Source: an uncultured Hyphomicrobiales bacterium (lineage in GTDB: Bacteria; Pseudomonadota; Alphaproteobacteria; Rhizobiales; Devosiaceae). Taken from it: a stretch of 64,000 bases of DNA. Below are positions 1,128 through 45,787 of the stretch, in pieces; position 1 is the first letter of the stretch; each line of letters begins with the position of its first letter. The translations under genes were made by a program, and so were the position numbers. The notes beneath the pieces are model-generated. The model was given only the letters and a program-made list of their open reading frames with translations, was not told where the DNA came from and searched no databases. Location: contig CAIKKY010000019.1 of assembly GCA_903828145.1 (NCBI GenBank), positions 186,001 to 250,000 on the forward strand, written 5' to 3'.

Positions 1128-4598
<3,471 letters not shown>

Positions 4599-4659
4599 GG
4601 TGTTGTCCTAGCGGTTGGGAGCGCGCCAAACCAGTCCGGGTCAGCCGCTCGTCCACAAC

Positions 4660-4758
4660 TCACAAAAAACGTTGCGCCAGGTCCATCCAGGTGAACGCGG
4701 CAGCCGAAAAGCCGCAAAGCGTGGTGAAAGCGAAGAGATCCTTGACGAAGCTGAGCAT
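4660..4758 (-). CDS. 32-residue single-pass membrane peptide, SOS-controlled (SidA-like candidate)
   Basis: This is a short ORF of 32 codons plus TGA that begins MLSFVKDLFAFTTLCGFSAA and ends with FTWMDLAQRFL. It has a textbook Shine-Dalgarno (CGGAGGAC, 5 bases before the ATG at 4758). Residues about 8-24 form one hydrophobic helix, with K6/D7 before it and D26/R30 after it, so the product is probably an inner-membrane micro-protein. Two GTTC-N7-GTTC LexA boxes lie inside the promoter immediately upstream, and dnaE follows 61 bases downstream on the same strand. Caulobacter SidA, an SOS-induced 29-residue membrane inhibitor of FtsW, has the same size class, topology and regulation. Homology to SidA is inferred from these properties and not from an alignment. 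Confidence 0.7.
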   Translation of the reverse strand: MLSFVKDLFAFTTLCGFSAAAFTWMDLAQRFL

Positions 4759-4772
4759 TCCCGTCCTCCGTT

Positions 4773-4787
4773 GTTCCGCCTTCGTTC
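4773..4787 (-). promoter_or_regulatory. LexA (SOS) box 2, GTTC-N7-GTTC
   Basis: Plus-strand GTTCCGCCTTCGTTC is a perfect match to the alphaproteobacterial LexA consensus GTTC-N7-GTTC. It overlaps the last base of the predicted -10 element and the transcription start, a position where bound LexA would block initiation. Confidence 0.75.
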
Positions 4788-4815
4788 TTATATGTTCTCT
4801 TTCTGTTCCTGTCCA
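4787..4815 (-). promoter_or_regulatory. Sigma-70 promoter of the micro-ORF/dnaE transcript
   Basis: On the minus strand TGGACA (4815-4810) and TATAAG (4792-4787) are separated by 17 bases, each one mismatch from consensus. The transcription start would fall near 4780, giving a leader of about 22 nt before the 32-codon ORF. The spacer contains LexA box 1. Confidence 0.7.
4794..4808 (-). promoter_or_regulatory. LexA (SOS) box 1, GTTC-N7-GTTC
   Basis: Plus-strand GTTCTCTTTCTGTTC is a perfect GTTC-N7-GTTC match. It lies wholly inside the 17-base spacer between the -35 and -10 hexamers, the usual place for a LexA operator. Its centre is 21 bp from that of box 2, two helical turns, so two dimers could bind the same face. 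Confidence 0.8.
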
Positions 4816-4851
4816 CTGTCCCCGCGAAAAGCGTGAATCCTCTGTTAATAT

Positions 4852-5538
4852 CTACAGGGTGAGCGGCTCGACGCGGCCCTGCCGCAGCGTAACGATGCGG
4901 TTCGCCCGGCGCGCCAGATCGTGATTATGCGTGGCAATCAGGGCCGAGGCGCCCTCCTCGCGGATCAGGGTCTGCAGCGCCTCGAACACCCGATCGCTGG
5001 TGGCGGGGTCGAGATTGCCGGTTGGCTCGTCGGCGAGGATAATGCGGGGCCGGTTGGCGGCGGCGCGCGCAATGGCCACGCGCTGCTGTTCACCGCCTGA
5101 AAGCTCGCCGGGCCGATGCGTGGCGCGGTGCGCCACCCCCAGCACATCGAGCAGCTCCATGGCGCGCGCCAGCGCCCGCTTGGGATCGGCGCCGGCAATG
5201 AGCTGGGGCAGCACCACGTTTTCCGCCGCCGTGAATTCCGGCAGGAGGTGGTGGAACTGATAGACATACCCGATGGTATCGCGCCTGAGGAGCGTGCGGC
5301 CGCGCTCGCTCAGCGTGCTGGTCTTGAGCCCGGTGACTTCGACCTCGCCCGATTGCGGACGTTCGAGCAGGCCGCAAATGTGCAGCAGCGTGGATTTACC
5401 CGAGCCGGACGGGGCGACAATCGCCACCATTTCGCCCGAGCGCAGTTCGAGATCGGCCGCTTCGAGCACGCGCACTATGGTTTCGCCCCCGCCGAAATGG
5501 CGGTGCACGGCACTCAGCTTCAGGTGAACGTCACTCAT
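4852..5538 (-). CDS. lolD: Lipoprotein-releasing system ATP-binding protein LolD
   Basis: The 228-residue ABC ATPase begins [15 protein letters not shown]. It has Walker [10 protein letters not shown], a Q-loop, the signature [14 protein letters not shown], Walker [13 protein letters not shown] and the H-loop ATHNHDL. The combination [11 protein letters not shown] and ADEPTGNLD is typical of the LolD/MacB/FtsE group. With the adjacent permeases it powers release of lipoproteins from the inner membrane to LolA. The ATG at 5538 overlaps the upstream permease stop by 8 bases; a longer in-frame extension exists but would lie inside the permease gene. It is the last gene of proS-lolC-lolE-lolD. 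Confidence 0.92.
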
Positions 5539-6874
5539 ATCGCAAGGCCTCAACCGGGTCATATTGCGCCGCGCGCCAGGCCGGATAGAGCGTGGCGAGG
5601 AAGCTGAGCGTGAGCGCAACGCCCACAATGGTCAGCACCTCGTTCAAATCAGTCCGGCTCGGCAGCGACGAGAGATAGAAAATTTCAGGCGGGAAGATCG
5701 TCACTCCCAGAAGGCTGGAGAGGAAGGCCCGGATTGGTTCGGCATTGGCCGCGAGAAGAAGCCCGATGCCGAGCCCCAGCAGCGTGCCGCCCACACCTAT
5801 GGCGAGGCCCGCGAGCGCAAAAATCCGCATGATCGCCCCGCGCGTCGCCCCCATGGAGCGCAGCACGGCAATATCTGTGCCCTTGTCCTTCACCAGCATG
5901 ATGAGGCTCGAAATGATGTTGAAGGCCGCAACCACCACAATGAGCGAGAGGATGACGAACATCACCGAGCCCTGGCTCTTCAGCGCCTCGAAAAACGTCT
6001 CGTGCTGCTGCTGCCAGTCGGACAGCACCAGTGGCCGGGTGAGCGCCAGCGTAATCGCATCGCGCATGGGGCCGATGGCGTTGGGATCGGTAATGAAGAT
6101 CTCGAGCGCCGTGGCACGATAGAGCCGGTCATAGGCCGCTTCTTTCACCTCGAGGTCGGCATCGGCCGGGGGCGGCTCAACGCCCGCCTTCAGTTGCCGG
6201 TCAAAGAGGTTGAAATAGTCCTGCGCCGGCTTCAGCGGCAAAAAGACATAGAACCCGTCAAACTCGGTCATGCCGAGATCAAACACCGCCGTGACCTTGA
6301 AGCTGCGGATCTGCGGGGTCTTGCCGGTCGGGGTTTCCTGGCCGTTGGGCGAGAGGAGCGTGACCGGATCGCCGACACCGAGCTTCAGCTTTTCGGCGAG
6401 ACGGCGCCCGATGGCAGCGCCATTGGTCTCGTCCCACCCGGTCCAGCTCCCCGCAACGACACCCTTGTCAAGGAGCGCCAGCTTGGCGATGGACGCGGCA
6501 CTCAGCCCGCGCACCACAACGCCGGTCGATTGACTTTTCGGGCCCGAGGCCAGCGCTTGGCCCTCGGCATAGGGAATGGCGGCAATCACGCCGGGCACGC
6601 CCGCAATCTCGTTGGCGGCCTGGTCGTAATCGGTGAACTGCGATTCAATGGGATAGGCCGCAAAATGGCCGTTGAGGCCCAAAAGCTTGCTGACGATTTC
6701 GGCATTGAAGCCGTTCATCACCGAGGTCACGACGATCAGCGCCGCTACGCCCAGAGCAATCCCGCTGAGGGTGAGCCCGGTAATCACCGAGACAAAGCGG
6801 TCGGTGCGGCGCGACATGAGATAGCGCCCGGCGAGCAGGAATTCGAACCGCGAAAATGCCCCCCCGCCCCTCAT
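5531..6874 (-). CDS. lolE: Lipoprotein-releasing ABC transporter permease (second LolC/LolE copy)
   Basis: The 447-residue product has the LolC/E layout: [21 protein letters not shown] at the N-terminus, one membrane helix with [10 protein letters not shown], a large periplasmic domain, then three C-terminal helices of an FtsX-like domain, including [20 protein letters not shown] and the [13 protein letters not shown] coupling motif. It starts with an ATGA overlap on the preceding paralogue (6871-8220) and overlaps lolD by 8 bases. The two permeases share most of these motifs and are clearly paralogues. The C/E names follow gene order only. Many alphaproteobacteria carry one such permease at this locus. 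Confidence 0.9.
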
Positions 6875-43747: not shown

Positions 43748-45787
43748 ATGGCCATCGATCTTTTCGGCAGCGCGGACGACCTTCCCGAGCGTCGGCCCGC
43801 TGTCACGCCGCAACCTGCCCCGGCCTCTGGCGCGCCCAAGCCGCAGGCCATGCCGCCGGCCTCGGCCGGGGGCGGCTATTCGGCAGCCGATATCGAAGTG
43901 CTCGAAGGGCTCGAGCCCGTTCGGCGGCGGCCGGGCATGTATATCGGCGGCACCGATGACAATGCGCTGCATCACCTGTTTGCCGAAGTCATCGACAACT
44001 CGATGGACGAGGCGATTGCCGGACATGCCTCGCGCATCGAAGTTCATTTTTATGACGATGGCTCGCTGAGCGTCACCGATAACGGGCGCGGCATTCCGGT
44101 GGAGGCGCACCCCAAGTTCCCCGGCGTTTCGACGCTTGAGATCGTGATGACCAAGCTGCACGCGGGCGGCAAGTTTGATGGCAAGGCCTATGAGACCTCG
44201 GGCGGTCTCCATGGCGTGGGCGTGTCGGTGGTGAACGCGCTATCGGATTCGCTGGTCGTTGAAGTGGCCCGCGAACAGGTGCTGTACCGGCAGAGCTTTG
44301 CGCGCGGCAAGCCGCTTGGCCCGGTCGAAACCGTCGGCAAAATGGCCAATCGGCGCGGCACAACCACGCGATTTCACCCCGACCCGGAAATTTTCGGGCC
44401 CGAGGCGCGCTTCTCCCCGGCGCGACTGTTTAAAATGGCGCGGTCCAAGGCCTATCTGTTTGGCGGCGTTGAAATCCGCTGGAGCTGCGACGAAAGCCTC
44501 GTCACCAAGGACATTCCGGCCAAGGCCGTGTTCCACTTCCCCGGCGGCTTGAAGGACTTCCTCCTCAACCGCATCGAGGGCGAACCCCGGATCGTCGAGG
44601 ATGTGTTTGCTGGCACCGTGGGCAAGCCCGGCACGCATGGCGCGGTCGAATGGGCTATTGCCTGGTGCCTTGGCGATGGCTTCGTCAACTCCTACTGCAA
44701 TACCGTGCCGACCGGGAACGGCGGCACACATGAACAGGGCCTTCGCGTCGCGTTGCTGCGCGGCTTGCGCAACTATGCTGAACTGAGCGGCAACAAGCGC
44801 GCCGCCGTACTTACCGCCGATGACGTGTTCGTCTCGTGTTCGGCCATGCTGTCGGTATTCGTGCGCGAACCCGAATTTGTTGGCCAGACCAAGGACAGGC
44901 TGTCCTCAGCCGAGGCACTGCGGATCGTCGATGTTGCCCTGCGCGATGCGTTCGATCATTGGCTCGCCGCCTCGCCCAATCAGGCGGGCAAGCTGCTCGA
45001 CTGGTCCATCGAGCGCGCCGAAGAGCGGCTGCGCCGCCGTAAGGAAAAGGAAGTCGATCGGCAAAGCGCCACGCGCCGGTTGCGGCTGCCCGGCAAGCTG
45101 GCCGATTGTACCCAGACCGCCCAGCAGGGCGCCGAACTGTTCATCGTCGAAGGCGATAGCGCCGGGGGCAGTGCCAAGCAGGCGCGCGACCGGGCGAGCC
45201 AGGCTGTGCTGCCCCTGCGCGGCAAGGTGCTCAATGTGGCCGGCGCCTCGCGCGACAAGCTTGCAGCCAACCAGCAGATCGGCGATCTGGTGCAGGCCCT
45301 TGGCTCAGGCACGCGCGACCGCTACCGCGAAGATGACCTGCGCTATGACAAGATCATTCTGATGACCGACGCCGATGTCGACGGGGCCCATATCGCGGCG
45401 CTGTTGATGACGTTCTTCTTCCAGGAAATGCCCAAGCTGATCGAGGGCGGGCACCTCTATCTCGCGATGCCGCCGCTGTTCCGCATTACCCAGGGCAGCA
45501 AAGTGGCCTATGCAATGAATGACGCGCATCGCGACAGCATTCTCGCCACCGAGTTCAAGGGGCAAAAGCCCGACATCACCCGCTTCAAGGGCCTTGGCGA
45601 AATGCCCTACCAGCACCTGCGCGAAACCACGATGCACAAGCGCACCCGTACGCTGCTGCAGGTGAAAGTTCGCGATGACCTTGAGGGAACCAAAGACGCG
45701 GTGGAGCGCTTGATGGGCAACCGGCCCGAGTCGCGCTTTGACTTCATCCAGGAGCATGCGGCCTTCGTGACCGACCTCGATATCTAG
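43748..45787 (+). CDS. parE: DNA topoisomerase IV subunit B
   Basis: The 679-residue ATPase subunit has the GHKL motifs EVIDNSMDEAIAGHA, DNGRGIPVEAHPKFP and TSGGLHGVGVSVVNALS, and the TOPRIM motifs ELFIVEGDSAGGSAKQARDR and ILMTDADVDGAHIAALLMTF. The C-terminus DFIQEHAAFVTDLDI and the lack of a GyrB-type insert indicate ParE. It decatenates daughter chromosomes with ParC. A 45-residue proline/alanine-rich N-terminal extension precedes the ATPase core. CTGGAG lies 6 bases before the ATG. Confidence 0.95.
   Translation: MAIDLFGSADDLPERRPAVTPQPAPASGAPKPQAMPPASAGGGYSAADIEVLEGLEPVRRRPGMYIGGTDDNALHHLFAEVIDNSMDEAIAGHASRIEVHFYDDGSLSVTDNGRGIPVEAHPKFPGVSTLEIVMTKLHAGGKFDGKAYETSGGLHGVGVSVVNALSDSLVVEVAREQVLYRQSFARGKPLGPVETVGKMANRRGTTTRFHPDPEIFGPEARFSPARLFKMARSKAYLFGGVEIRWSCDESLVTKDIPAKAVFHFPGGLKDFLLNRIEGEPRIVEDVFAGTVGKPGTHGAVEWAIAWCLGDGFVNSYCNTVPTGNGGTHEQGLRVALLRGLRNYAELSGNKRAAVLTADDVFVSCSAMLSVFVREPEFVGQTKDRLSSAEALRIVDVALRDAFDHWLAASPNQAGKLLDWSIERAEERLRRRKEKEVDRQSATRRLRLPGKLADCTQTAQQGAELFIVEGDSAGGSAKQARDRASQAVLPLRGKVLNVAGASRDKLAANQQIGDLVQALGSGTRDRYREDDLRYDKIILMTDADVDGAHIAALLMTFFFQEMPKLIEGGHLYLAMPPLFRITQGSKVAYAMNDAHRDSILATEFKGQKPDITRFKGLGEMPYQHLRETTMHKRTRTLLQVKVRDDLEGTKDAVERLMGNRPESRFDFIQEHAAFVTDLDI

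Follow-up and report, generated by a model that had tools for sequence, protein, structure and literature searches.

SOS division inhibitors are usually regarded as lineage-specific inventions. The closest described system to the locus analysed here is SidA of Caulobacter, a 29-residue, SOS-induced peptide of the inner membrane that is described as inhibiting division via FtsW (PMC4211646). In a Caulobacter lexA mutant, deletion of sidA has been reported to relieve filamentation (PMC12700426). Caulobacter also possesses DidA, a damage-induced division inhibitor with a single helix (PMC4211646), which our peptide resembles by description. DidA differs from it in having 71 residues, in not depending on the SOS response and in binding FtsN. 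Among Gram-positive bacteria, YneA, SosA and ChiZ are SOS-induced, single-span division inhibitors that have been modelled on FtsW, with SidA modelled at the opposite side of FtsW TM7 (PMC13396833); all three are larger than our peptide and unrelated to it. Here, we describe a short gene in front of dnaE in a bacterium of the family Devosiaceae, order Hyphomicrobiales, whose product is likely a divergent homologue of SidA.

The window, the whole stretch of 64,000 nucleotides that was analysed, carries dnaE on the minus strand (1128..4598, ATG at 4598), encoding the replicative DNA polymerase III alpha subunit of 1156 aa with Pfam PHP, DNA_pol3_alpha and finger domains. Upstream of it, on the same strand and separated by 61 nt, lies an ATG-initiated ORF of 32 codons (4660..4758), the product of which is the 32 aa peptide MLSFVKDLFAFTTLCGFSAAAFTWMDLAQRFL. 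A Shine-Dalgarno sequence, GGAGG (4765..4769, minus strand), is located 6 nt ahead of the start codon. The next gene upstream, also on the minus strand, encodes an ABC-transporter ATPase (4852..5551) that we take to be LolD-like; it ends before the promoter and is not part of the system. An earlier note on this DNA had reported the ATG, the strong Shine-Dalgarno sequence and the position and strand of the ORF relative to dnaE, all of which we confirm on the sequence. It had also described a single hydrophobic helix with charged ends. This description holds for the predicted structure, as AlphaFold2 run on the single sequence gives one helix spanning residues 2-31 with a mean pLDDT of 86.9, and the one hydrophobic stretch is flanked by the charged residues K6/D7 and D26/R30, although its hydropathy is modest (Kyte-Doolittle 17-residue maximum of 1.43 at residue 8).

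The ORF is conserved as a reading frame within its own family. Among 47 distinct own-family loci in which the start of dnaE could be located, window included, it has 32 codons in 45 and 33 codons in two (L024, and L045 if counted from its ATG), and a ribosome-site core lies no more than 18 nt from the start in all 47. Peptide matches at E<=10, the weakest of which may be due to chance, were obtained in 130 of 136 own-family genomes. Eight residues (M1, F4, K6, D7, A10, F17, W24 and D26) are invariant across 19 representatives. Pooled over 23 disjoint own-family pairs, pN/pS is 0.33 in the frame of the ORF and 0.96 and 2.33 in the shifted frames; pN is below pS in 1063 of 1081 own-family pairs. 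The earlier note had proposed conservation of the frame and a Ka/Ks below 1 in relatives as a check, and both are borne out within the own family. Because selection is frame-specific, length is conserved and ribosome-site cores are present, the comparative evidence indicates that the ORF at 4660..4758 is a real gene under purifying selection.

The region ahead of the start codon reads TGGACA-G-GAACAGAAAGAGAAC-A-TATAAGAACGAAGGCGGAAC and contains two exact matches to the pattern GAACN7GAAC, both on the minus strand. The LexA site of Caulobacter is given as GTTCN7GTTC, which is the same pattern read on the opposite strand (PMC4211646), and a published example of a LexA site is GTTCttgttatGTTC (PMC12700426). 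Box 1, GAACAGAAAGAGAAC (4794..4808), is situated between a -35-like TGGACA (4810..4815) and a -10-like TATAAG (4787..4792), which are 17 nt apart and on the same strand; box 2, GAACGAAGGCGGAAC (4773..4787), overlaps the last base of the -10 element and the likely start region. The promoter elements were identified by reading of the sequence, and a stricter sigma-70 scan called no promoter at the peptide's upstream region; TATAAG or TATAAA together with a -35-like pattern is found in 30 of the 47 own-family loci. The two exact boxes, which the earlier note had not described, lend support to the SOS link that it had drawn. Across 4773-4808 the window has four half-sites in a row.

Our comparison with Caulobacter used genomes that were reached via the DnaN sequence of structure 5wce, which has 100% identity to C. 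vibrioides records. A 29-codon ORF with a LexA-type box upstream directly precedes dnaE in C. vibrioides DSM 9893 and scores 72.4 bits on the NCBI SidA model NF033228 (cut-off 35); on its other flank is an inosine-uridine nucleoside hydrolase gene. The literature assigns sidA to CCNA_02004 (PMC10769358), an inosine-uridine nucleoside hydrolase to CCNA_02005 (PMC3667746) and dnaE1 to CC1926 (PMC1839093). Taken together, the two neighbours and the NF033228 score identify the ORF before dnaE as sidA itself, and the SidA ORF precedes dnaE in all 18 Caulobacteraceae genomes examined. The earlier note had pointed to Caulobacter sidA and its neighbours as the proper comparison; this comparison gives the same place before dnaE, LexA-type boxes in both lineages and a link between the peptides at profile level.

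This link was found by an iterated hidden Markov model that was seeded with own-family peptides alone and run over 3746 ORF segments, taken from both strands of the regions ahead of dnaE at 244 distinct loci. Eight of 252 loci had been removed as duplicates, and L013, L016, L054 and L055 were left out as the start of dnaE was not found in the stretch. At E<0.01, the profile recovered the peptide in 47/47 own-family loci, in 42/83 loci of the order, in 11/89 loci of the class set (three of these 89 being of the same order) and in 7/7 loci that an initial search of the order had added; the frequencies in the order and class sets are not unbiased, as 60 added order loci were hand-picked to cover families and 60 added class loci were chosen in descending order of DnaE similarity, with two skipped for short flanks. 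One of the 11 class-set matches (L064) belongs to the same order, and the other ten fall in five families. None of the Caulobacteraceae SidA loci was matched in round one, two were matched in round two and all 18 in round three. The E-values were calculated with the 3746 segments as the database, and from round two onwards the profiles contain the matches themselves. No reverse-strand match at E<0.01 occurred among the 3746 segments, and on 7834 control ORF segments (127 sources, 375 kb) the final profile found the window's own ORF alone at E<1.

A profile that contains no peptides from Caulobacteraceae or other orders (A2) was then applied to whole genomes. Over 18 Caulobacteraceae genomes, its top match was the ORF before dnaE in eight, elsewhere in six and absent in four; the E-values of the eight, 0.01-0.95, are weak singly, but eight top matches on one target of a hundred bases are not due to chance. 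In 289 genomes of the class, five of the six best matches besides the window's own were located before dnaE (one of these belongs to the window's order); with the threshold set at E<=0.3, a match lay before dnaE in at least 9 of the 47 genomes with matches. Alignment of A2 with SidA by hhalign gave a probability of 92% (E 5.8e-7, 21 columns), compared with 66% over 18 columns for the own-family profile. A2 scored 13/13 SidA peptides above all 1000 composition shuffles of each, while the direct own-family profile did so for only 2/13. In the reverse direction, the SidA profile (A3) gave the window peptide 4.7 bits, a score equalled or exceeded by 14 of 1000 shuffles; certain other members of the own family are matched in score by hundreds of their shuffles. 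Since direct profile comparison is weak, the claim of homology rests on the intermediates. Two peptides of another family, which score 20.5 and 23.5 on NF033228 and are thus below the cut-off, look like bridges.

The alignment with SidA is confined to about the first 18-21 residues, the N-terminal two thirds of the peptide, and the C-terminal half is unaligned. The common pattern is M-x-x-h-h/A-[KR]-[DE]-x-x-A-h-x-x-h-x-x-F. Beyond it, the window family has a conserved W-M-D and an R-L tail, whereas SidA has C-x-V-A-x-L-V-A; the window peptide is also slightly longer, with 32 residues against 29. Neither Pfam nor NCBIfam assigned the window peptide to a family. NF033228 gave no match to it at E<=1, nor at E<=10 when it was scored as a member of A2, and matched none of the 45 peptides of A2, which come from the own family and the order and include that of the window. 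We accordingly rejected the peptide as a SidA equivalog in NCBI's sense. It does share the wider traits of the SidA family, namely a sequence relation through intermediates, a short peptide of one predicted helix and a place before dnaE1. The comparison with SidA drawn in the earlier note is partly supported, by position, LexA-type boxes and an indirect profile link; NF033228 does not back equivalence, and direct similarity is weak. Inhibition of division through FtsW and a role as a checkpoint in this organism are predictions. Our profile data argue that the link between the window peptide and SidA is real, that it runs through intermediates and that it concerns the N-terminal two thirds.

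The window peptide is best read as belonging to a family of putatively SOS-controlled peptides that are encoded before dnaE in Alphaproteobacteria, an assignment made from sequence. Like SidA, it has about 30 residues, one helix (predicted here), LexA-type boxes and a gene directly before replicative dnaE. We consider it likely that it is a divergent SidA homologue, a membrane peptide under SOS/LexA control that would hold the septal complex after damage. In undamaged cells, the promoter would be silenced by LexA bound at both boxes; upon DNA damage, RecA-driven cleavage of LexA would open it, and the peptide of 32 residues would insert into the inner membrane as a single helix and lock the FtsW/FtsI/FtsN septal wall-synthesis complex in an inactive state until repair. 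This transcription may at the same time increase the replicative polymerase, as the 61 nt gap carries no terminator-like site (none was found in 4560-4900), and dnaE probably shares the promoter of the peptide gene. LexA binding, induction, membrane insertion, division arrest, FtsW as the target and co-transcription of dnaE are thus all predictions, and the steps that would follow from the boxes draw their strongest support from the relationship to SidA.

The kind of system is already known, an SOS-induced inhibitor of the SidA type, and the window peptide is below the cut-off of the NCBI family for SidA. As far as we searched the literature, what is new is the occurrence of relatives across the order and in five families outside it, the dnaE locus that they have in common and the LexA boxes at that locus. 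A SidA-type checkpoint looks more widespread than recorded. If SidA relatives are encoded ahead of dnaE throughout Hyphomicrobiales and in further families, the checkpoint by which many soil and symbiotic bacteria respond to damage would become directly testable, the place to look would be before dnaE and behind LexA boxes, and comparison could separate the target-binding half of the peptide from the varying tail. More tentatively, and as a proposal that may well prove wrong, SidA could represent, in Caulobacter, one branch of an operon of a LexA-controlled peptide and dnaE that is ancestral in Alphaproteobacteria and whose single SOS promoter both halts the septum and increases the polymerase, so that division would be held exactly during boosted replication capacity; the differing tails might then reflect a retuned contact with the divisome.

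A different target is conceivable. TisB of E. coli is a LexA-controlled peptide of about 29 residues with a single helix that acts on membrane potential. Likened from description, it has in common with the window peptide the control by LexA, which is predicted for the latter, and the short single helix, and differs in its site of action. An SOS-induced, membrane-depolarizing peptide of this kind would slow growth or promote persistence instead of blocking the divisome, and the size, the single helix and the LexA boxes of the window peptide fit it equally well; moreover, the C-terminal half is unlike SidA, so the target may differ. We nevertheless regard this as unlikely in view of the profile relationship and the common locus with SidA.

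The differing tail also leaves room for a partner other than FtsW within the divisome. The peptide could inhibit division through FtsN, as does DidA, itself a single-helix, damage-induced peptide, and the C-terminal half of the window peptide is not aligned to SidA. The part that is aligned, however, is aligned with SidA, and we think such a switch of partner quite unlikely.

The proximity to dnaE could suggest a leader peptide, the translation of which tunes dnaE while its amino-acid sequence is of little importance. The gap is short in the window and in the own family as a whole (median 73 nt, range 59-480) and leader coding sequences are known in Caulobacter (PMC4117421). At the loci compared, though, neither fixed coupling nor weak selection on residues was found. 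The pN/pS of 0.33 reflects selection at the level of residues, and the gap reaches 480-590 nt (26 to 590 nt overall, and 33-71 nt in 18/18 Caulobacteraceae). In L016 (genome G103), the own-family peptide gene (1501-1593, minus strand) lies behind an ABC ATPase gene and is followed by a folD-type gene instead of dnaE, and in the genome of L054 the start of dnaE is about 1.6 kb from the peptide. SidA, at the equivalent locus, is described as acting as a protein (PMC4211646). We rejected a dnaE leader on these grounds and consider it very unlikely. In two loci of one own-family genus (L025 and L026, genus g16), the peptide gene lies 473-480 bases before dnaE and a second exact box is present.

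The distribution of exact boxes indicates that LexA-type boxes travel with the peptide across loci. In the own family, an exact box lies no more than 75 nt from the peptide start in 40 of 47 loci, and one lies between -35 and -10 in 26. Within 500 nt before dnaE, exact boxes occur in 44/83 order, 24/89 class, 38/47 own-family and 10/18 Caulobacteraceae loci, against 3/83, 3/89, 2/47 and 0/18 for a reversed-pattern control; control boxes with spacings of 8 and 9 were found 0 to 5 times per locus set. The spacing-6 pattern is frequent in the own family (35/47 loci), where it does not serve as a clean control because the -10 region contains a genuine third half-site. This half-site is conserved in own-family loci, with GAAC-N7-GAAC-N6-GAAC running across the -10 element.

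Within the 700 nt covered by the upstream search, no recognizable peptide was found before dnaE in 41/83 order and 78/89 class loci. Over the same distance, an exact box is present in 38/42 peptide carriers and 9/41 non-carriers of the order, in 11/11 carriers and 13/78 non-carriers of the class set, in 40/47 own-family loci and in 10/18 Caulobacteraceae, several more of which have a site with one mismatch. The boxes at those 9 and 13 loci without a recognized peptide might suggest that only dnaE is controlled by the boxes and that the short ORF arises incidentally from conservation of the promoter region. This is hardly credible, given that selection is frame-specific, that boxes are far commoner in carriers and that a peptide close to the threshold is present at some box-only loci. 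At the box-only loci of the order and class, either the peptide would have diverged or dnaE itself would be under direct SOS control. One of them, L063, has no accepted peptide, yet contains a hydrophobic ORF of 35 aa at E 0.015.

In the window, a third exact box is found at 44827. It is located inside a coding region that resembles a topoisomerase (ParE by eye), and we rejected it as a regulatory site and attribute it to chance. The whole genome contains 48 exact boxes and 31 matches to the reversed-pattern control. Exact boxes whose starts are less than 30 bases apart occur in this genome only before the peptide gene and just before lexA, the latter matching the expectation for the box pair of an autoregulated LexA. 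The recA gene (L263) of the same genome is without an exact box and has the one-mismatch site AAACAAAATGAGAAC upstream. A further pair of exact boxes, 72 bases apart, is found in the same genome at G000:C19:383600-383686 and may mark a further SOS gene.
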